From NCBI RefSeq assembly GCF_003144115.1, contig NW_020312014.1, forward strand, positions 26,078 to 90,077: a DNA stretch of 64,000 bases. Direction: 5' to 3'. The notes under the pieces were generated by a model. It ran no database searches, was not told the origin of the DNA, and saw only the letters and a list, made by a program, of their open reading frames with translations. Shown piece by piece: positions 27,945-43,100 of this stretch (position 1 is its first letter; each line of letters opens with the position of its first letter). Origin of the DNA: Tilletiopsis washingtonensis (Eukaryota > Basidiomycota > Exobasidiomycetes > Entylomatales). A program made the translations under genes and the position numbers.

Positions 27945-30900
27945 ATGTTCTCCTACCTGCCCTCGCTCCTCTCCGGCGCATGGCAGCACCTGCCCGCGTA
28001 TGCGGCCCTCTCCGGCGCACTGCAGCGGCGCCTGCTGGCCTATCTGCTGCGGCGCGCCCTCGGACGCTTCCTGGCGCCCGGCGCGCTCGATGCCGCCAGC
28101 ATCGACGCCGCCATCGGTAGTGGCAGCGTCGAGATTGCCGGTCTGCAGCTGAGTGCCGAGGTGAGTCGCATTGGCCGAGCGGTGAGGGAGTAGGTTGAGC
28201 GTGGCTTGGAGGCTGGATACTGGAGGCACGCACGGATAGCGAGAGGTCGGATTGCTGGTAGCGCTCAAGGTCGGTGCTGGCGTGAACGACCACTCGACGC
28301 CAGCGTGCAACTGCAGCGCGAGCACAGCTCCTTAGCTTCGGTCCGAGGCAGCCTCTCAGTTCTGACCCAGGCCAAGCACGCTGTGGCGCCGGACGCAGCG
28401 CAAGCGCGCCTGGCCGGAAGAACGTATTGGCTCTCGCTGACGCTCGCTCTGCCTCTCTTGCCGTCCCTTCCTGCACAGGCCATCAACGAGCTCCTCCCAC
28501 GCGGTCCGCTGCGCGTGGTCAGCGGACAGCTGGGCCGCGTCGCAGTGCAGCTGCCCTTCCCAAACCTCTGGAGCGGCGAGCTCAGTCTCTCGCTCTCCGA
28601 CATCGACGTTCGCGTCGCGCTCGACGGCAAAGTATCGCCGCCGGCGTCGCCGTTCGACAGTCCTCGTGCTGGCCGCTCTAGCGCAGGCCTCGAGGAGTCG
28701 ATCCTCGGCGCTGCAGAGAGCGTGTTTCATGACACGCTCGAGGGGCAGGAGCTGGAGGAGTCGCTGCAGGCGTCGATGCTAGCCGCAAGCACCGCTGTAC
28801 CAGGCACGTCAGCTGCTGCAGCTGCGGCGTCAGAGGCGCCCGCGCCCAGCTCGCTCATCGCCGGCATCGTCGAGGGTCTGCTCGCGCGCCTCAAGGTGTC
28901 CGTGCGGCGAGTGACTCTGCATCTGCAGCACTCGCAGCACCTCTCGGCGGCTGCCGGCGTGCAGCTCGAGTTGCGCATGGAGTCGTTCGACCTTCAATCG
29001 GAGGCCTCTGCCCCAGCAGCCTCGCATCCTGCGGCACTGCAAGACCGCCTCGTGCAAGAAGTCGTGCGCACCGCCCGCGTCGCGGGCATCTCGCTCTGGA
29101 TGACGCTGCCTGCCGACGCCGCCTCGCACGAAGCACGCGGCACTCGCCAGGCGCGGTGGAGAGCGGCGAGCTCGAGCGAGTCGGGGAGCTCGGACTCGGA
29201 CAGCGAGACGAACGAGTACATGGAGATGAGCTCTGCCATTCCGGATCTGCGACAGAGCAGCATCGCCACTGGCGCGCTTGACGCGAGTCAGGCCAGCGTG
29301 TATGCCAGCGCAGAGGACATTCGAGGCGTCGAGGTCTCCCAGACGAAGAGTCGGCCCGACGCGAGCGCCGACACGCAGGACGTCGACCGTGGGCCTGAGA
29401 TGCTTTTCTCGCTCGGCAGCGAGGCAATCGTGGTGCGCTTCGCGACGCTCAAAGAGGTGCCGCGGCCTGCGCCAGACAATTTTGCCTCGCAGAACGAGGA
29501 ACCCGATGCAGGAGAGGCGCAAGAGAACGAGACAGTCGTGGCACTGCCAGCCTCGCGGCTGCGCACGTCGCTCAGCGTCGAAGTGGGCGCCGTCGTCGCT
29601 TTCGTGCATCCGCGACAGCTTGCGGCGCTGATGTCGATGGCAGGCGAGCTCGGCTCGGCCTCTAGTCCGCCACGCGACGACGAGCAGCCGACCTCCCTGC
29701 CTGCTGCTCGAGCAGCCTTCGACGCGTCACTGCGTATCGCTGCACTGCACCTCATCTGCGCGTACGAGTCGCCCAATCAGCTGTCGCCGCCTTCGAAGCG
29801 AGCAATGCACGAGTCGCTGCAGGCCTTTTGGCAGCGGCCGGCACGCATACATCCGGCCGTCGGCCACTTGCGTCTTCGTGTGGAGGGAGTGGAGCTCGAT
29901 TACGCCGTCGCCGCCTCGTCCGAGCTCTCGCCTACAGCATGCGTTCTGGTGACGGACGTCGGCGTCTACGAGCACCTCTCGCCCCACCTGGCCAACGGCG
30001 ATGTCGCGACGGTCTTTCCGATTCTGTTGCCCGACGCCAACATGCAGGAGCAGTACGCGGTGCCGCTGGCCGGCACGCCCTTGGGCCTCGAGAAGAGACG
30101 AGAAGCGCTGGCGCCCTTGGAGCAAGTCAGTATGGACGCGGCAGACTGGCGTCTCGCGGCCAGCGAGCAGCGCTCCGCTCCATCAGCGACTAGCGAAGCT
30201 CCGCGAGCGTCGTCACAGGGCCCCTACTGGCGCGCCTCGTGGGGCGAACGCGCGTGGAAGGTGCGCCCTCGAGCTCGACGCGCTTCAAGCAGCGTCTCGT
30301 CTGCTGCGAAGGAGCTCTTGCGTCCGGCTGTGCGCGTAAATGTCGTGCTGCTAGTGACTGGAGCCTCGACAACGGTGGAGCTGGCGCCGCTACATGTCTT
30401 TGTCGACGTCTCGACGGTCAATCGCCTCATGCCGTTGGCGCAGTCCGCCAGCGCTGCGCTGCGGCAGAACGTGTGGTCGTCGGCACGCTCGGACATGTCG
30501 CAGTCCTTCGCCACGCTGACCGCATCGCCCAAGGTCAAGAGCGCGCCGCTGCAAGGAGCCTCGACCTCGACGTCGGCCAGCAGGACCGAGCTGCGCTGTG
30601 CCTTGCTGCGCGTGGAGCTGCGCGTGCCGAGCGCGGCTGCGGGACCTCAAGCGTCCGAGCTTCGGTCTGGCATCCTGATCGTCGATGTTCAGGGCATTGA
30701 TGCGCGTCTCGGTCCGCCAAGTAGAGATGTACCGCCGCATCGGTCATCAGTCGGCTTCGCGACTGGCCCGCCGCACACACGGGCGCGTCCTGACGCCGTC
30801 GCAGAGGACGGACGCTGCTCGATCGCCGCAGTTGTAGCCTTCTTCAAGCCGATCCGAGGTGCGTGTGCAGCTGCAGTATTGAGACGTAGAGACTGACCGG

Positions 30901-33900
30901 CTGCACTACAGAGGCACGAGCCACCGCATTCGCGGTAGTGGGCAAGCTTGCGGCAGACGAGGCTGCTGGTGCACCGCGCGACGAGCCTCGGCCACTGAGC
31001 CTCTGCTTGCTTCGTCGTCCCGGTGCTGTGTTCGCCAAACCGCGCTCATCGATCGACGTGCAGCTGCCGGCCGTGCGCACATCTCTGTCCAAGGCGCTGC
31101 TAGACCAGCTCGAGCTGCTGGCGGACGATCTCTCGCAGTGGTCTGCGGCGCTCGGACGTGAGACCGACACCGACGACGTCGACGGCGGCACCGACGCGCT
31201 CAAGATTCTCGGCTCGCGCTTCTTCGGCACCAAGCACAGCATCTCTGCCTTATCGGGCAGCTCGGACTCCACTGAGCTGGCCGGCAGGGGCGACAGCGCG
31301 CCGGCGCTAGCATTGAGCATCTCCGAAGGTGAGGCTCGTCAGAGAAGCTCCCGCGTCTCACTGGGCTGACTCCTGCCGGCAGCGTCCGTCTCGCTCCACG
31401 TTCCACGCGCGGACTCGACCAAGGATCTGCATCACCTCGAGGCGTCGGCGTCGGAGATCGCTTTGTTCGTCGATCCCGCGCATGCCGAGGTGAGATCTCT
31501 GCGCCGTCTCTACTTCATGGCCGTGACTGACCTGATCTCCTGCAGCTGACTACGCTCATTGATCTTTCGATCATGGACGTCGTGGTCAAAAGCCGCGTGG
31601 AAGAAGCGGCCACGACGTTCGTCTCGCGCACGCTCGAGCAGTCCCTGGTGCGCCGCGCTCGCGTCGCCGCTGCTGCTGCTTCGCTGACACCCCGTCCTGC
31701 AGGCGTCGGGCGGCATCGCGATGATCTCGCTGCATCTCTTGTCCATCGCCGAGGCGGACACCAGCTACCGCGAGTCCAAGATCGACGTCGCGCTGCGAGG
31801 CTTCACCGTTGCCGCCTCGCCGTCCGACGCGGCGCTGCTCAGCGATCTTGCGCGCTTCCTGCAGTCGCCCGAGGGCGCCTTCGAGCACGTCGAGCCTAAC
31901 GAGGTCACGCGCCTGTCGCTGCGCGTCAGAGACGTCTCTCTGGTCGTGTCTGCTCCTCGAGTCAGCGCGCAGGCGGCGGCTGTCATCGGCGAGCTCTCGC
32001 TCAAGGCCAAGCTGTCGCCGTACTCTCGGCGGACCACGTACAAGTTTGCGCTCCGCAACACTTCCGTGCTGCTCGCAGAGAGGGCCACCGCGCCCTCGGA
32101 AGAGAGGCGCCGCAAGATTCGCACGCCACTCGACCACTGGGCCGCCTGTGAATTCGCCACGCTCGTCGACCTCGCCGATGCCAAGGGCAGCCTAACGCTC
32201 AGCACGCTCACGCGGCCCGAGGTCGATGTCAAGGTGTCGCGGCTGCGCATCGAAGTCACTGCCTGCGCAGACACGCTGAGCGTCGTGGCTGAGCTCTCTC
32301 GCGCCCTGACGCCCGTGCCTGGGCCGCCTCCGTCATCCAGCGACCCCTCCGACGCGCAGGCTGCAGAATTGCGCGCTTCTGCGGCGGACTCTGACTCGAA
32401 AGAGCCAGACGGACGAGACATGCTCGCGAGCCTGGACGAGGATGCATTCCGCCGCAGCAGTCAGAACGCAGTGCTTGCGTCTTCTGCCGACCTCGTCGAG
32501 GACGACATTCCTCGCAACGCAAGCTACCTTGGCGCCGCGCCCGCCTCGCCCAGCATCGTGTCGGCGGCGCTCGAGGATGACGAGCTCCTCGGCTCGGGCT
32601 CCATTGAGACGCTCGACATTGCACCGTCCGTCGCCCAGAGCGCAAACGTCGTGCTCCAGAACGACGTCGTGACTGTGCGCCTGCTCGATCCGCGAGGCAT
32701 CTGCCCGAAGCCCAACTACTTTACCGATCCGCTGCTCGAGCCGCACGTGGCGCAGAACTCGTGAGTACCGGAGTGTCTTGTGGTCGTTCCGTCCTTTGCT
32801 GATTTGCGACGCGCAGTGCCTTTGCCAGCTCGGTGCGTGTCCGCATCGCTGACTGCGACTTTGCGCTGCGCCTGTTCGCTGGCTACGACTGGGATGCAAC
32901 GCGGCAGGCCATCGAGACCGAGGCCCGGCGGGTGCGACGCCGGCTGCAGAAGATCCAGCAGCTGCTGGACGAAGGCCAGACGCCCGACGACAGCGTCGAG
33001 GCCATCACGGGCGCGCTCTTCGACTCGATCCACATCTCGCTGCCCGCGGCACAGAGCGAGCTGGATGTCGGCGCCGCCATGAAGGTCATGGACGACGAGC
33101 TCGGCGAGCAGTCTGAGACGGCTTCCAACGCCAGCACGTGGCAGCCACTGCCGAGTGGCGCGGGCATCCGAGCGCCAGTGCACGGCCCCGCCTCGCGCCG
33201 CCGGAGCAAGCTGCAGCGCTCGCACAAGTCTATGATCGACATTGAGCTGCGAGGCATCGAGGCCGAGTTCGACGCCTTTGGGCGTACTTCGCCGACTGCG
33301 TCGCGGCTCGCGGTCAATGCGCGCTCGCTGCAGATCCTCGACAACATTCCGACGTCGACGTGGCGCACCTTTCTCACCGAGATGCTGCCCGAGAACCGCG
33401 CCTTTCGGCGCAACGACGAGTCGCGCATGCTGCGTGTCGAGGTGCACAACGTCCGTCCGCAGCTGGGCCAGTCGCCGCGCGAAGAGGTGCGTGTGCGTGC
33501 CAAGCTGGCGCCGCTGCGGCTGCACGTCGACCAGGACGCACTCGACTTCTTCAAGAAGTTCTTCTCGTTCAAGACGCCCGGCGTCGAGCCGGAGCCTGCT
33601 GGTGCGCCGGCGCCGCCTTCCGGCCCCTTTATTCGTGAGTACCCGCGATGTCTGCCGAGTGATGCTTGGCGCTCATCGCGTCGCCCGCGCAGAGCACGCC
33701 GAGATCTTCCCCATCCGCCTCAAGCTCGACTACAAGCCGAAGCGCGTCGACTACGGCCTGCTGCGCGAGGGCAAGACGGTCGAGCTGATGAACTTCTTCC
33801 ACTTCGACGAGGCAGAGATGACCCTGCGGCACGTCACCCTCCGCGGCCTTATGGGCTGGGCGCGCCTGTTCGACACGCTCAACGACATCTGGACGCCCGA

Positions 33901-34573
33901 CGTCAAGGCGAACCAGCTGGCCGACGTGCTGAGCGGCATTGCGCCCGTGCGCTCGCTCGTCAATGTCGGTGCCGGCCTGGCGGATCTCGTGCTGCTGCCC
34001 ATCGAGCAGTACCAGCGCGACGGGCGCCTGGCGCGCGGCCTGCAGAAGGGCGCCGCGAGCTTTGCAAAGACGACGGCGCTGGAGGCCGTGCGCCTAGGCG
34101 CCAAGCTTGCGACGGGCACGCAGGTGATCCTCGAGCAGGCCGAGCATGTGCTTGGCGGGCGCATGCACTCGGCCGTCCGCGCCGAGGCCATCGCACAGCC
34201 CGATGCCGCGGATGCAGGCAGCAGCGCCCTCGACGCCGCCGAGCGCGACAGCCTCATCAGCCGCTACGCCGAGCAGCCCGAGGACATGCGCGACGCGCTG
34301 GCGCAGGCCTACGCCGGCCTCAGCCGCGGCCTCGGCGACGCCGCACGCACCATCCTCGCCGTGCCGATGGAGGTGCACGAGCGCAGCAGCGGCGCCGGTG
34401 CCTCGCGCCCGGTGATCCGCGCCGTGCCCATCGCCGTGCTGCGCGGCGTCGCGGGCGCCTCGGAGGCGGTCAGCAAGACGCTCCAGGGCCTGCAGCGCGA
34501 ACTCGACGGTGCGCCGCAGCTGAGCGAGGACAAGTACAAGGCGCGCAAGCCTCCGCCGCGAAGGACCGAGTGA
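27945..34573 (+). CDS. ATG2: ATG2 autophagy lipid-transfer protein, about 1,990 aa
   Basis: Rod-shaped bridge-like lipid transfer protein that links ER and phagophore and feeds phospholipids to the growing autophagosome. Exon 1 (27945-28160) encodes the chorein N-terminus: LQRRLLAYLLRRALGRFL, then GSVEIAGLQLSAE. After a 318-nt intron, exon 2 from 28479 opens AINELLPRGPLRVVSGQLG, the usual continuation. The CAD-tip region is clear: VRVRIADCDFALRLFAGYDW (near 32840). The ATG2 C-terminal block starts about 33693: FPIRLKLDYKPKRVDYGLL, MNFFHFDEAEMTLRHV and GLADLVLLPIEQYQRDGRL, with amphipathic helices after it. Length matches fungal ATG2. The middle is divergent with Ser-rich insertions. About eight exons; the other introns are about 50-60 nt. 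Head-to-head with the TMEM41-like gene. Confidence 0.94.
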
Positions 34574-35188
34574 GGGGCTTCAAGAGGTGCTCCGAGGGTG
34601 GAGGGGGGTGGGGGCGGCGGAGAGGAGATAGAGGAGGACGAATTGGGTGCCGGACTGGGATGAGGAGACGCCGCTCCTCGGCCCCTGCCCCGCACCCTGT
34701 CATCCATCTCCATCTCCATCTCCTCCTCTTCCACCCCGTCTCCCTCCCGCTCCTCGCTTCTTCCTTCCGCCCGGACTCCCTCGAGCTGGAAGAGAACCGG
34801 GAGGAGAGGAGGGGCAGAGAGGAGGAAAGGCGAGAGGTCAGAGTACGGAGTGTCGCACACGGCGGGGTGGCTGGAGCGGAATGTCTTCTCCGTTGCGCTT
34901 CCCCACCGTGTACGTCCACTTCCTGACTCTAGACTCTTCTCCTTGATCTCCCCTTCCCCCCTTTCTCTCTCGCTCCGGCGTTGCCCCGTCCTTCCACTCT
35001 TCCTGCTACCTGTCCTCTGCCTCCCCTGCTTCTCCTCTTCCTCCAATATCGATACCCCACGCACTCCCCACATGTATCACTAGCGTCTCTTCATCCCCAT
35101 ACAGCAGCAAGAGTCAGAGTCTCCCATCCCCTCGCGCGTCTCTCGCAGTGTGTGACATTAGCTCTGCTAGCTCGTGGCAGCTCACGCT
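34574..35188. other. Intergenic: ATG2 / NUC1 convergent region
   Basis: 615 bp. From about 34680 to 35100 the plus strand is CT-rich (runs of ctcc/ctct), with a complementary purine-rich patch near 34800-34850. No gene seen; both 3' UTRs lie here. Confidence 0.5.
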
Positions 35189-37746: not shown

Positions 37747-40124
37747 ATGCCGCGCCTCCCCGAGCTCGCCAGCTCCTCGGCGCGGCCCAAGCGCTCCAGC
37801 CTCGCCCTCTCTCGGCGCACACTCAGCTCCACTGCCTCGCGCTTCGCCGCCGCCAGCGCAGCAAGCAGGAAGCCGCCGACGGTCCTGCCTGCGCCGCAGC
37901 CCATGTGGACGTGGAAGCCCGACAGTCTGCAAGCGGCGCTCACGAATGCGCGCAAGCGCGCCGCGCCGTTCACTCCCAAAGACGCACTCGTGCTCGGCGC
38001 CTTACGAGAGCGCTATGCTGCGGCCGACACGGAGCTGCGCGCCTCGAGGGACGCGGCGAAAGCGGCGGGAGAGGCGGTGCGCGTGGCGATGAAGCAGGGC
38101 AGGGAGGTGGCCGCGCACATCAAAGAGGAGGCGGGCACAGCGAGAACACGGACGCGAGAGCTGGAGATGGAGAGGGAAGGGCTGGAGCGCCAAGCCTTGG
38201 CGCTGCGCATGCGCCTGCCAAACGAGACGTCGCGAGAGACGCCGGTGGGCGATGAGTCCCAAGCGCGTATCGTGCGACATGGAGGCCCGACAAACGCATT
38301 GCCGCCACAATGGCACGCTGCGTGGCAGGACGCACCGGCAGCCGGCGTGGCCGCCTTTGAGGGCGTCGAGGCAGATGCGACGCGCGACCACGTCGATCTG
38401 CTCGCCAAGTATGCGCCCGCTGCATTGCCGACGCCGGCTGCACAGCACGTCTCCGCTTCCGGCTTCCCTCATTTCGGCGAGCCGCTCGCCAGCCTGGCAC
38501 TCGCGCTCGAAAACTACGCATTGAGACGGGCGCGTGCCAAAGGCGCACAGCTGCGCCTCGTGCCGGATGTTGTGCCCAGCTCTCTCGTTGCTTTGAGCGG
38601 CTTCGCACCAAGGGAAGACGACGCGGCGCAAGTCTATACGCTCTCTGCTGCTTTCAACGACCTTGGGCTCTCTCTCGCCGGCACCGCCGAATTGCCGCTG
38701 CTGGCCATGCACGCCAATCGCACATATGCCAAAGAGGACCTGCCGATCTTCGAAGTGGCGCTCAGTCATTCCTTTCGAGCCGAGGCGGGAGCGAGAGGGC
38801 GAGAAAGTAGAGGGCTTTATAGAGTGCATCAGTTCAGCAAAGCGGAACTGTTTGTGGTGTGCAGAGCCGAGGACAGCGGCAAATGGCTCGAGAAGCTGGT
38901 GGATCTGCAGGTGGAGATCTTGAAGCCGCTGGGCCTTTGCTGGCGGTGAGTGGGCATGAGAGATGGAGAGTGTGGAAGCCCCAGACTGGAGCTCACGTAT
39001 GCCCCGCCCGCACTCCCGACTCAAGCGTGCTCGATATGCCGACCGAGGAGCTCGGCGCCAGCGCGTTTCGCAAGTACGACGTTGAGGTGTGGATGCCGGG
39101 GCGTGGCACCTGGGGCGAAGTAAGCTGTCTCAGTGCTCTTCCTCTCATCTGCATCGCTGACCACCCTCCTCTCGTCGTGCAGGTCTGTTCCGCCTCAAAC
39201 TGCACCGACTTCCAATCCCGTCGCATCTCCACACGAGCCGAGGGCTTGACCAAGCGCGCCTTTGGCTGGGCGCACACGCTCAACGCCACCGCTGCAGCGA
39301 TTCCGAGGTTGCTCGTGGCCATGATCGAGACGCATGGCTTCAATGCCGCAGGACAGCCGCGCGTGCCAGAGGTGCTGCGACGGCATTGGATTGGCAATGA
39401 GCGCGACGTGGAGTGGCTGTCTTTCGATGAGGCTGGGCACGTGTCGGCGCAAGGCGGCGCGTCCACAACAAGAATAAGCCTCGGCGGCAGCGGCCACCAA
39501 AGTCGGCAGTATTCGACTTCGACTGCACCTCCTCCGCCACCGCCAGAGACTCGGCGTTCCGTCTGGGAGCGCAGCGTAGCTCGCGTGCGCGCTGCCGCAG
39601 CTCGCAGCGGCACGGATCCCTCAAGCATGGTGCTCAGTTTCGCGCTCCTGCACGAGCTGAGCGCCATCTTGCCGCTCTTCGTCGTCTTTTGGATCCTCTC
39701 GAGCCTCGGCGCAGGGTCGGCGGTGCTCGCGTGGCTTCTACCGCCGAGCAGCGAGGAGACGTCGAGCGTGCAGGCAAAAGTGAGGCAGTGGGTCGATGAG
39801 GGAGCAGCGAGAGCGGAACGCTACGGGAGGAGAAAGGGATGGTTTGGCTTCGAAAAGGGCAGCGAGGCGACGGGCGAGTGGAGCACGGGACAAGAGGCGG
39901 GCGCCGTGCTGGCGGGAAGCTTTGCAGATGCAGTGGCGGCGTATGCCATCGTCAAGGTGAGTTGCTGCGCCTCGCAAGCCGACGACGCGGTGTCGGTGCT
40001 GACTGAGCACGCGAAGGCACTCTTCCCACTGCGCATCGCAGCATGCATCGCGCTCGCCGGGCCCTTTGCACGCCTGGCCATCGAGCCGCTCAAGCGCGCA
40101 CTGCGACGTCGGAAGGGTCGGTAG
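37747..40124 (+). CDS. DIA4: Mitochondrial seryl-tRNA synthetase fused to a C-terminal DUF1279 (FAM210-type) membrane domain, 724 aa
   Basis: Bifunctional-looking mitochondrial protein. Exons 37747-38945, 39026-39119, 39183-39956 and 40017-40124 join in frame. Residues 1 to about 45 are a Ser/Ala/Arg-rich targeting peptide. About 50-160 form the SerRS coiled-coil tRNA arm. The class II core follows: motif 2 near 343 (FRAEAGARGRESRGLYRVHQ), VLDMPTEELGASA, YDVEVWMPGRG, SNCTDFQSRR and motif 3 NATAAAIPRLLVAMIE near 464. SerRS ends near 505. The frame runs on through a linker (QYSTSTAPPPPPPETRR) into MVLSFALLHELSAILPLFV near 580, a gap, then SFADAVAAYAIVK joined to ALFPLRI, which is DUF1279 with two helices. 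No stop or obligatory start separates the parts. The last intron (39957-40016) is 60 nt and stop-free. The stop is 40 bp from the helicase stop. Alternative: two genes with a missed junction. Confidence 0.85.
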
Positions 40125-40164: not shown

Positions 40165-43100
40165 CTAGTCGAAAGCGACGCGCAGCTTCTTGGAGCGCCG
40201 CTCGTCGAGACTGTCGGCCGCGCGCCTGGTGCCGACGGCGCTGACAGGCAGCGGCTGGGCGGCGGGAAGAGATGGCTGGGATGCGAGAGGGAGCGGCGAT
40301 GGAGGAGATATGGGGAAGAGAGGGATGGGCGTCGCTATGGCTGTGTTTGCCGCTGCGGCCGCCTGCGAGACGTACTGCGGGTTGCGCAGATACGCTCGCA
40401 GCGTCTCGTCCTCTGCCAGTCTTGAGACTGCTCCTTGCCGCGCCTCATCGAGCAGTGTATCGCCGCGCCGCATGACTGTCAGCTCGTGCGTGCCTTGGGC
40501 AATGAGCGTTGTCACGTAGACATCCTTCCTCTGCCCTACGCGCCATGTACGCTTGAGCGCCTGCTTGCGTACTGCGGCGTCAAGCACCGGCTCAACAAAG
40601 ACGGAGCGGTTGGCGGCGGTCAGCGTGAGACCTCGAGCTCCCATGCTGGTCTTCATCAGCAGCACGCCCGTCGAGGCGTCGTTGCAGAAGAGCGAGATTG
40701 CTTGTGCGCGTGTGTCGACGGACTGACCAGGCGTATAGAGTGCATGCTCAATATGGCACGCGCCAAATGCCGCAGAGATCTTGCTCAGCACGCTCGTCAT
40801 GTCGCTGAAGACTATGATCTTGTCGCCGCAGCCGAGGGCGTGCCGGACGAGGTTGAGCACGTGCGCCAGCTTTGCCGATGTTGAGGAGACGATGCACGCA
40901 TCTCGAAGCACGCTCCCCGCCGGCAGTGCCCGAGGCTTCTCCTCGATGCGTGCCAGCGTGCCATGCGCGGCCTTGGCGGCCAGTGTCGTCATCTCTTCAA
41001 GCATCTCCTCCTCGTCAACGCCGCCGCTGCCACGTGCCTCCTGCTCGCGGACGGAGCGGTACGCTGCGATTTGCAGCAGTTGGATCAGCGACGGCGCCAG
41101 CTGCACGTCCGCAGCGACAGACGCCGCTGAGTGGGCCGACGCGAGCTCGCAAAGCTGCGCGGGCAGGCCGCACACGCCCAGGCGAGCAGTGTCGCCCTGT
41201 CTTGACCATGCGTCGACGTCCCGCAGCGCCTCGTGTAGCTGTGCATCCGCCTCTTGCGCCATGGCGCGCTCCTCGTCGCTCCACTCTCGCTTCTCCATCT
41301 GCAGCTCTTCCAGCATCGTCTCGCGCGCCGAAGCCGCTTGCGAGAGCAGGTTCGAACTCTTTGAGCCTCCTTCGCTCGTGGCCGTCGGAGAGAGGAAGAA
41401 GGCAGCGAGGGCCATGTTGTGCAGGATGGAGGCGAGGTGCACCGTGTTCTCCTGTAGGATGGAAGGTGTATGAGCAACGGTTTCGCCCTCGCTTGCGTCT
41501 TCGCGCACCTTATGGAACAGATAGTTGCTGCCCTGAAGAGCGAAGAGGCTCGGTCAGTGCCTCTGCTCAGCACACCAGCCCCATCTCTCTCACCGTGCGG
41601 CGCGAGAGCACGGCGTTGAGCTGAACCAGCGCCATCAAAGCATTGTACGTCTTACGTTGATGTTCTGTCATTGCGAGTGCCCGTGAGCCTGCAGCCGAGG
41701 TATGATGGGCATGATCAGCCTCACCAGGCAGGACGACCTGCAGCTCCTGCTGCACGACGCGCGGCGGAGCGTTCTCAGCCTCGACGACGGCGAGTGGGTT
41801 GCGCACCATCCGCTCCGCCAGCGCATCTGCAAAGCGCTGTCTAGCTAAAGGCTCGCCGAGCCGCAGTGGGCTGTCAACAGCCGCTGACCAGTGGTCCGAG
41901 GGACCGTAGAGAAAGTCGAAGAGATGTCCAAGGACGGAGAGGTCGTTCTTCTCTGCGCTGCTCAGTGCACCATCGCACTGCTGTGCTTCAAGCTCCTCGT
42001 GTTCATGCGCCTCGCCGACTAGACGCGAGACATCGGCGCCGCCGGAGAGCAGCGTTGTCGGAGTGCCCGACACGATCCAGCGACTGTCGGCAGAGATGGC
42101 GCGCGCCACGGCGACGATGCGAGACTTGCCGCGCAGCGTGTCGCCCTCGTCGACGACGAGCCGGCGAAAGTGCACACGCAGCAGCGCGCTGATCTCGGGC
42201 TCCTTGAGCGGCGGACAAGTGCAGACCACTGTACGGCTGGCACCGGCGTAGCGGCACTCGCACTTGCGCGGCCGCACCACGACAGGCGGATTGAGCAGCT
42301 TGCGCGACTCGAGAGCAAGACGAGCGTCACTCATGACGACCAGGTCATGTTCGACTAGCTGCTCGACGTCGAGCACTGCGTTGTCGTCGAGCAGAAAGAG
42401 GGCGCGAAGAGCACCACTGTTGACGTGCGTCTCTAGCTCCGCGCGCCACTGTGGCGCAAGATTCCTCGGCACGACGACGAGCGTTGCGCACGAGAGGCGC
42501 ACGCGCCAGCTGTACTCTCTGCGGTGATGACGCGCCTGGTGCAGCCCTCGTTCATGCTGATACTCGTAGAAAGGCCGGCCGGCGCGCAGAAGCGCAGCCA
42601 TCCGCGCCGCCTGCGCTGGCGACAGCTCGGCGTCGGCGGGGAGGCTGCCCTGCAGGACGTGAGCGCAGTGCTCGGCCAGCGTTGGCAGGCGGTCTTGATG
42701 CATGATCGCCTCGCTGTTGATCTTGATGCTGGGATGTACGAGCGGCATCGAGTCTTTGGTGCTGCTCCCAAAAGGGTCAGCGCGGCGCCACGAGTGCGAG
42801 GGCAGAGCGGCCCTTACTCACAGCAGGCACAGCGCAAGGATCTCGAGCGTCTTGCCCACGCCCATCTCTTCGCAGAGAATGCCCCCTCGCATGGGAGCCT
42901 GCTCTGGGCACGGCACGCTGCCCTCGTTGCAGAAGCGCACGAGGCCGGCGTTGAAGAGCAGCGGCGCGCAAGGCCCCGCGACGTTGACGAGCTGCAGCGC
43001 GTCGAGCCGCTGTGTGCGGCGCTCGTACAGCAGCATGGTGCTGACGGCGCGCCGCTGATACTCAAAGAGCCTCGTCTTGAGCCCCGCCGGCTGCGGGCTT

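Follow-up and report, generated by a model that had tools for sequence, protein, structure and literature searches.

The processing of composite precursors in fungal mitochondria is described in PMC8847149, where Arg5,6 is internally processed, Rsm22-Cox11 is a composite precursor with both kinds of motif, and the ICP55 consensus is given as RX(F/Y/I/L)|(S/A)(S/T); PMC12375894 adds that Rsm22-Cox11 is cut following import. Yeast mitoribosomes also form large assemblies with gene-expression factors, known as MIOREX (PMC4627264). A table in PMC13116585 (2026) labels the Pfam family PF10306 'MIOREX complex component 11' (Mrx11), and PMC6230623 has MRX11 as a table entry under 'process unknown'. 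In animals, FAM210A binds mitochondrial EF-Tu via its DUF1279 domain, according to PMC7863409. For PF10306 or Mrx11 itself, no function was described in the literature searched. The yeast gene YPL041C is MRX11, and the presumed membership of PF10306 proteins in MIOREX is taken from an annotation label.

In the window, by which we mean the whole 64,000-nucleotide stretch of Tilletiopsis washingtonensis DNA that was analysed, a mitochondrial seryl-tRNA synthetase (SerRS) and a PF10306 domain are encoded in one frame. As far as predicted proteins can tell, the fusion is real and conserved, and it joins two known parts, SerRS and PF10306. The reading that we consider on balance probable is that one gene gives rise to a mitochondrial SerRS with a C-terminal Mrx11-type (PF10306) membrane module, by which the enzyme would be held near membrane-bound mitoribosomes. 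The SerRS-PF10306 fusion was absent from the literature searched, as judged by title and abstract start among the matches listed, and some database entries are already named 'seryl-tRNA synthetase'.

The window belongs to contig C17, in a genome of 18.7 Mb and 32 contigs. At 28194-34926 its + strand holds the exons of a gene of the ATG2 autophagy type (PF13329), and a SNF2/Helicase_C type gene on the - strand (40165-42817) points towards the fusion gene, the two open frames lying 40 bases apart. The fusion gene itself occupies 37747-40124 on the + strand, where all of its features given below also lie, and consists of four exons encoding 724 residues in a single spliced open frame without a stop; these coordinates and the unbroken frame of 724 codons had been proposed in an earlier note on this DNA and are borne out. 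In the splice model, aided in exon 1 by alignment to mitochondrial SerRS, exon 1 (37747-38945) contains the start codon, a presequence-like N terminus, the SerRS N-terminal arm and the first part of the catalytic core; the N terminus (residues 1-45, 37747-37881) is rich in Arg and Ser, has RTLSS at residue 24 and is a putative targeting sequence. Intron 1 (38946-39025, GTGAGT...AAG) is followed by exon 2 (39026-39119), which encodes SerRS core, and by intron 2 (39120-39182, GTAAGC...CAG), which is open in frame. Exon 3 (39183-39956) runs in an unbroken frame through SerRS motif 3, the end of SerRS, the linker (residues 510-558, 39417-39563) and most of the second domain, and intron 3 (39957-40016, GTGAGT...AAG) separates it from exon 4 with the stop codon (40017-40124). 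The three introns, of 80, 63 and 60 bases, all have GT...AG ends. A near-identical ENA sequence (P0008 in our numbering of relatives) reads through two of the gene's introns while keeping the length and frame of the linker. Compared with the window, it differs in amino acid at 3 of 321 exon codons and at 5 of 41 read-through intron codons (Fisher p 0.0006; 4 of the 21 codons of intron 2 differ), a pattern that, together with the kept linker length, speaks for the intron model and for a linker that is coding.

The SerRS half was expected to be mitochondrial and to extend to about residue 505, and alignment to solved mitochondrial SerRS confirms this, with the SerRS portion reaching about residue 505-509. 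The PF00587 (tRNA-synt_2b) core, at residues 308-482 (38668-39335, introns within the span), scores 77.5 bits against a cut-off of 29.3, and the top solved relative by sequence is human mitochondrial SerRS (7tzb, E 9.3e-63), followed by 1wle (E 6.4e-60), whose title names a mammalian mitochondrial SerRS. The presumed serine-site, motif 2 and motif 3 positions T313, E315, R344, E346 and R473 are unchanged in all six rows of an alignment of fused proteins. The N-terminal arm profile PF02403 scores 13.2 bits in the window protein, under its cut-off of 28.2, and is matched by three of the 22 relatives scanned. For the fused relative P0010, a structure model (mean pLDDT 78.7, 16 rows) shows a pair of long arm helices at the N terminus (72-114 and 122-157), and its best fold matches are 1wle, 8ffy and 7tzb (E 1.8e-32 to 5.5e-32). 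Taken together, the SerRS half is of the mitochondrial type by sequence, with an intact catalytic core, and is predicted to aminoacylate mitochondrial tRNA-Ser. An exon-by-exon search of the genome, in which the best candidates were scored, found no second mitochondrial-type SerRS; since the sole other SerRS-like locus, on C14, matches the window SerRS at 30 and 37%, the window gene looks like the genome's only mitochondrial SerRS.

A search for the same fusion in relatives had been suggested for this locus. A consensus-domain search, covering proteins of about 243-773 residues and scoring the 7994 candidates that shared most words, returned 24 relatives, 19 of them fused and five free-standing; the fused ones comprise 17 with both Pfam domains and two fragments that start inside SerRS (P0007 and P0008, assigned by eye). 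Searching with the C-terminal region of the window protein gave five fused proteins, and a search of shorter proteins one further fused fragment. The fused relatives that carry a species name all belong to the Exobasidiomycetes: Ceraceosorus guamensis, Exobasidium rhododendri, Meira miltonrushii and Acaromyces ingoldii. On the free-standing side, names are given for Kockovaella imperatae (Tremellomycetes), Coniochaeta sp. and Cudoniella acicularis. Identity between the window protein and the five fused proteins in its alignment is 41-51%, and this degree of divergence among fused proteins indicates that the fusion is old. The free-standing PF10306 protein of Coniochaeta sp. 2T2.1 (P0023, 243 residues) bears the NCBI name 'mitochondrial seryl-tRNA synthetase' with no synthetase domain listed, a name perhaps copied from a fused relative.

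The history of the fusion was approached through a SerRS tree of 17 rows and a domain tree of 22 rows. Four pairs are common to both: the window with Ceraceosorus (100/99 in the SerRS tree, 85/96 in the domain tree), P0015 with Acaromyces, P0005 with Exobasidium, and P0003 with P0014. The domain tree sets the Kockovaella protein, although free-standing, inside the fused set and next to P0019-P0021 (87/79), and it leaves unplaced P0006, which groups with P0019-P0021 in the SerRS tree (100/99). Constraining the fused rows together in the domain tree was not rejected (p-AU 0.171), so that these trees neither establish nor reject that the fusion arose once, and because they have no unfused mitochondrial SerRS as outgroup, gain and loss of the fusion are inseparable. 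The sets behind these and other counts differ slightly: the 22 relatives scanned are the 24 found minus P0008 and P0017; the set of 16 fused rows is the 19 fused minus P0007, P0008 and P0017, with the window also absent; and a further alignment took 13 of 23 pieces, P0020 being absent. P0020, which has a second LHE, was cut wrongly for the SerRS tree and correctly for the domain tree. The fused proteins P0019, P0020 and P0021 are without the GRRKGxFGFE segment, some form of which is kept by the other 13 rows of the alignment in which they stand.

The nature of the second domain has to be settled before any function can be proposed for it. Residues 559-654 (39564-39851) match the PF10306 'FLILHELTA' profile with 57.9 bits in the whole protein and 60.2 in the C-terminal piece, against a cut-off of 25, and they include a first hydrophobic segment (residues 590-608, 39657-39713); a second (residues 686-704, 39945-40061) is split by intron 3 and lies in a part that resembles FAM210. 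The earlier note had taken the domain for DUF1279 (PF06916), the FAM210 family, and a SerRS-DUF1279 fusion now seems very improbable. PF06916 reaches 12.7 bits over 28 residues of the whole protein and 14.9 in the piece, where the cut-off is 26, so that in the profile check which that note had called for, tRNA-synt_2b came out over its cut-off and PF06916 under it. PF10306 is present in all 22 relatives scanned and PF06916 in one (E 9.5e-4), and in a profile search of the genome PF10306 occurs at this locus only. A separate DUF1279 gene does exist: a genuine FAM210 gene lies in the same genome on a different contig, C6, and scores 60.5 bits. In that gene (C6:517919-518326; L001 1414-2511, - strand), about 12 consecutive glutamines separate the presequence-like start from the domain. 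What can be retained of the DUF1279 identity, which is out at the Pfam cut-off, is a remote relation, not membership, as far as profiles and layout indicate: hhalign pairs the domain profile with the genome's FAM210 protein at a probability of 85% (E 5.8e-6, 35 columns), the stretch common to the PF10306 and FAM210 families being short and lying around AxAYxxxKxxxPxR, and in the window protein as in FAM210 two hydrophobic segments are spaced by about 100 residues. This weak profile similarity explains the earlier label, and since the domain is PF10306 and FAM210 has a gene of its own, the FAM210A-EF-Tu result, on which the functional argument was first built, is relevant here only through that short likeness.

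Given that the domain is PF10306, it may be asked whether it is made as part of SerRS at all, and whether it stays attached. That the fusion is one of appearance in the DNA only, hiding a pair of genes whose transcripts overlap or are separate, could be suspected from the low-complexity linker of the window, but we give this little credence. Both parts share an exon without a stop; a scan of 39390-39640 found no GTRAG, GTATG or GTACG donor, so an overlooked intron or stop codon there is out; and an internal start for a separate protein is out as well, because from the end of SerRS to the LHE of the domain the sole in-frame Met is residue 580, which already belongs to the domain. Each of the 19 fused relatives among the 24, moreover, is a single predicted protein. 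A stronger contender, though one that we still judge less than probable, is a tandem precursor, in which one chain is imported and MPP (then ICP55) cuts the linker, releasing SerRS on one side and, on the other, an Mrx11 protein with STST as its first residues, so that only expression and import are coupled. The ICP55 consensus for cutting after MPP (PMC8847149) is matched in the linkers of the window (RQY|ST, residues 539-543, 39504-39518) and of Ceraceosorus (RTF|ST), and Arg5,6 and Rsm22-Cox11 are precedents among fungi. The pattern is rare: SerRS bodies, 7060 residues in all, contain it twice, and shuffling the linkers of the window and of Ceraceosorus yields it in 3.0% and 2.3% of cases, respectively. 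It has persisted in these two although the remaining linker has diverged, and it is also found close to the start of the window protein (RTLSS), of P0005 and of P0014. Both linkers are long, the distance from the VEW start at the end of SerRS to LHE being 80 residues in the window and 96 in Ceraceosorus, and long linkers that carry a presequence-cleavage consensus make internal cutting a live rival.

The wider family speaks against cutting as a general rule. The pattern is in the linker of two of the 19 fused rows scanned (P0008, the near-twin of the window, was left out) and missing from the other 17; because window and Ceraceosorus are sisters, their matches amount to one observation. In P0015 a match begins at the final linker residue and extends into the first domain helix, the P0021 linker has a similar presequence-like motif, RRFHSS, and the exact pattern is absent from the whole sequence of P0020 and over the full length of all five free-standing proteins. 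The net charge of the window and Ceraceosorus linkers is merely +1 and +2. In ten of 20 fused proteins (window and P0008 included), LHE starts 40-46 residues after the VEW start, and the domain's first helix begins 29 residues ahead of LHE, confidently in the model of the free-standing Kockovaella protein and likewise in that of fused P0010; this leaves about 8-14 linker residues, and such proteins probably stay joined. The short-linker half of the family is thus likely a permanently joined protein, whereas in the window's branch the longer linker may permit cutting. The proposal that the linker is a relic targeting peptide accordingly fits the window and Ceraceosorus, but the tight linkers of ten of the 20 fused proteins leave no room for one.

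To return to the membrane-attached SerRS that we favour, the fused frame, its conservation, the intact SerRS core and the two hydrophobic segments of the module stand on the sequence itself. From these a working model can be drawn, in which a single N-terminal presequence would import both halves, SerRS would face the matrix, and both hydrophobic segments would either dip into the inner membrane or cross it. Such a module would keep SerRS beside membrane-bound mitoribosomes, so that Ser-tRNA might be charged at the site of mitochondrial membrane protein synthesis. The inner-membrane tethering of SerRS, already put forward in the earlier note, is something that we too infer. A Foldseek search with the PF10306 module gave no PDB matches at E <= 0.001, and ribosome binding is therefore without structural support. 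Alternatively, the fusion may only couple the dosage of the two proteins, without physical cooperation.

The Rosetta-stone argument drawn earlier from this gene stands in so far as a mitochondrial SerRS is joined to a membrane protein that belongs to the translation machinery, and conservation in relatives makes it stronger than it was; its partner is PF10306/Mrx11 and not DUF1279, and it hints, at the level of sequence, at a tie between Mrx11, rather than FAM210, and aminoacyl-tRNA supply. A more far-reaching idea, which we regard as rather unlikely, is that the Mrx11 module docks an aminoacyl-tRNA synthetase at membrane-bound mitoribosomes and that Mrx11 and FAM210 are branches of one superfamily handing charged tRNA (by way of EF-Tu in animals) to inner-membrane ribosomes, with the fusion making the hand-over of serine permanent. 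In any case, a conserved fusion with SerRS offers a concrete lead on the role of PF10306/Mrx11, namely a possible contact of free-standing Mrx11 with SerRS, tRNA or the mitoribosome. If the favoured reading is true, the window protein would be an organellar tRNA synthetase anchored in a membrane, and the remote FAM210 likeness suggests that a fungal counterpart of the animal FAM210A-EF-Tu link may exist.

Set against the systems known, the locus resembles the fungal tandem precursors Arg5,6, Rsm22-Cox11 and Atp25 in having two mitochondrial proteins in one precursor and, in the window, a cleavage-type motif in the linker; unlike in them, an internal presequence would not fit into half of the fused SerRS relatives, and cutting is here predicted from the motif. 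With FAM210A/B the module shares the surroundings of the second hydrophobic segment and the spacing of the two segments, but it stays under the family cut-off in a genome that has a FAM210 gene besides. The SARS2-type mitochondrial SerRS enzymes (7tzb, 1wle) have catalytic core residues in common with the window protein and an overall fold like that of the P0010 model, whereas the window protein has in addition a C-terminal membrane module and a putative N-terminal arm too divergent for the Pfam model. The closest likeness of the module itself is to the PF10306/Mrx11 family, whose LHELSA core, FGFE segment and AAYxxxKxxxPxR segment are also found in the window domain; the Mrx11 proteins of Kockovaella, Coniochaeta and Cudoniella are free-standing and have an N-terminal extension of their own, whereas in the window the domain stands behind SerRS.
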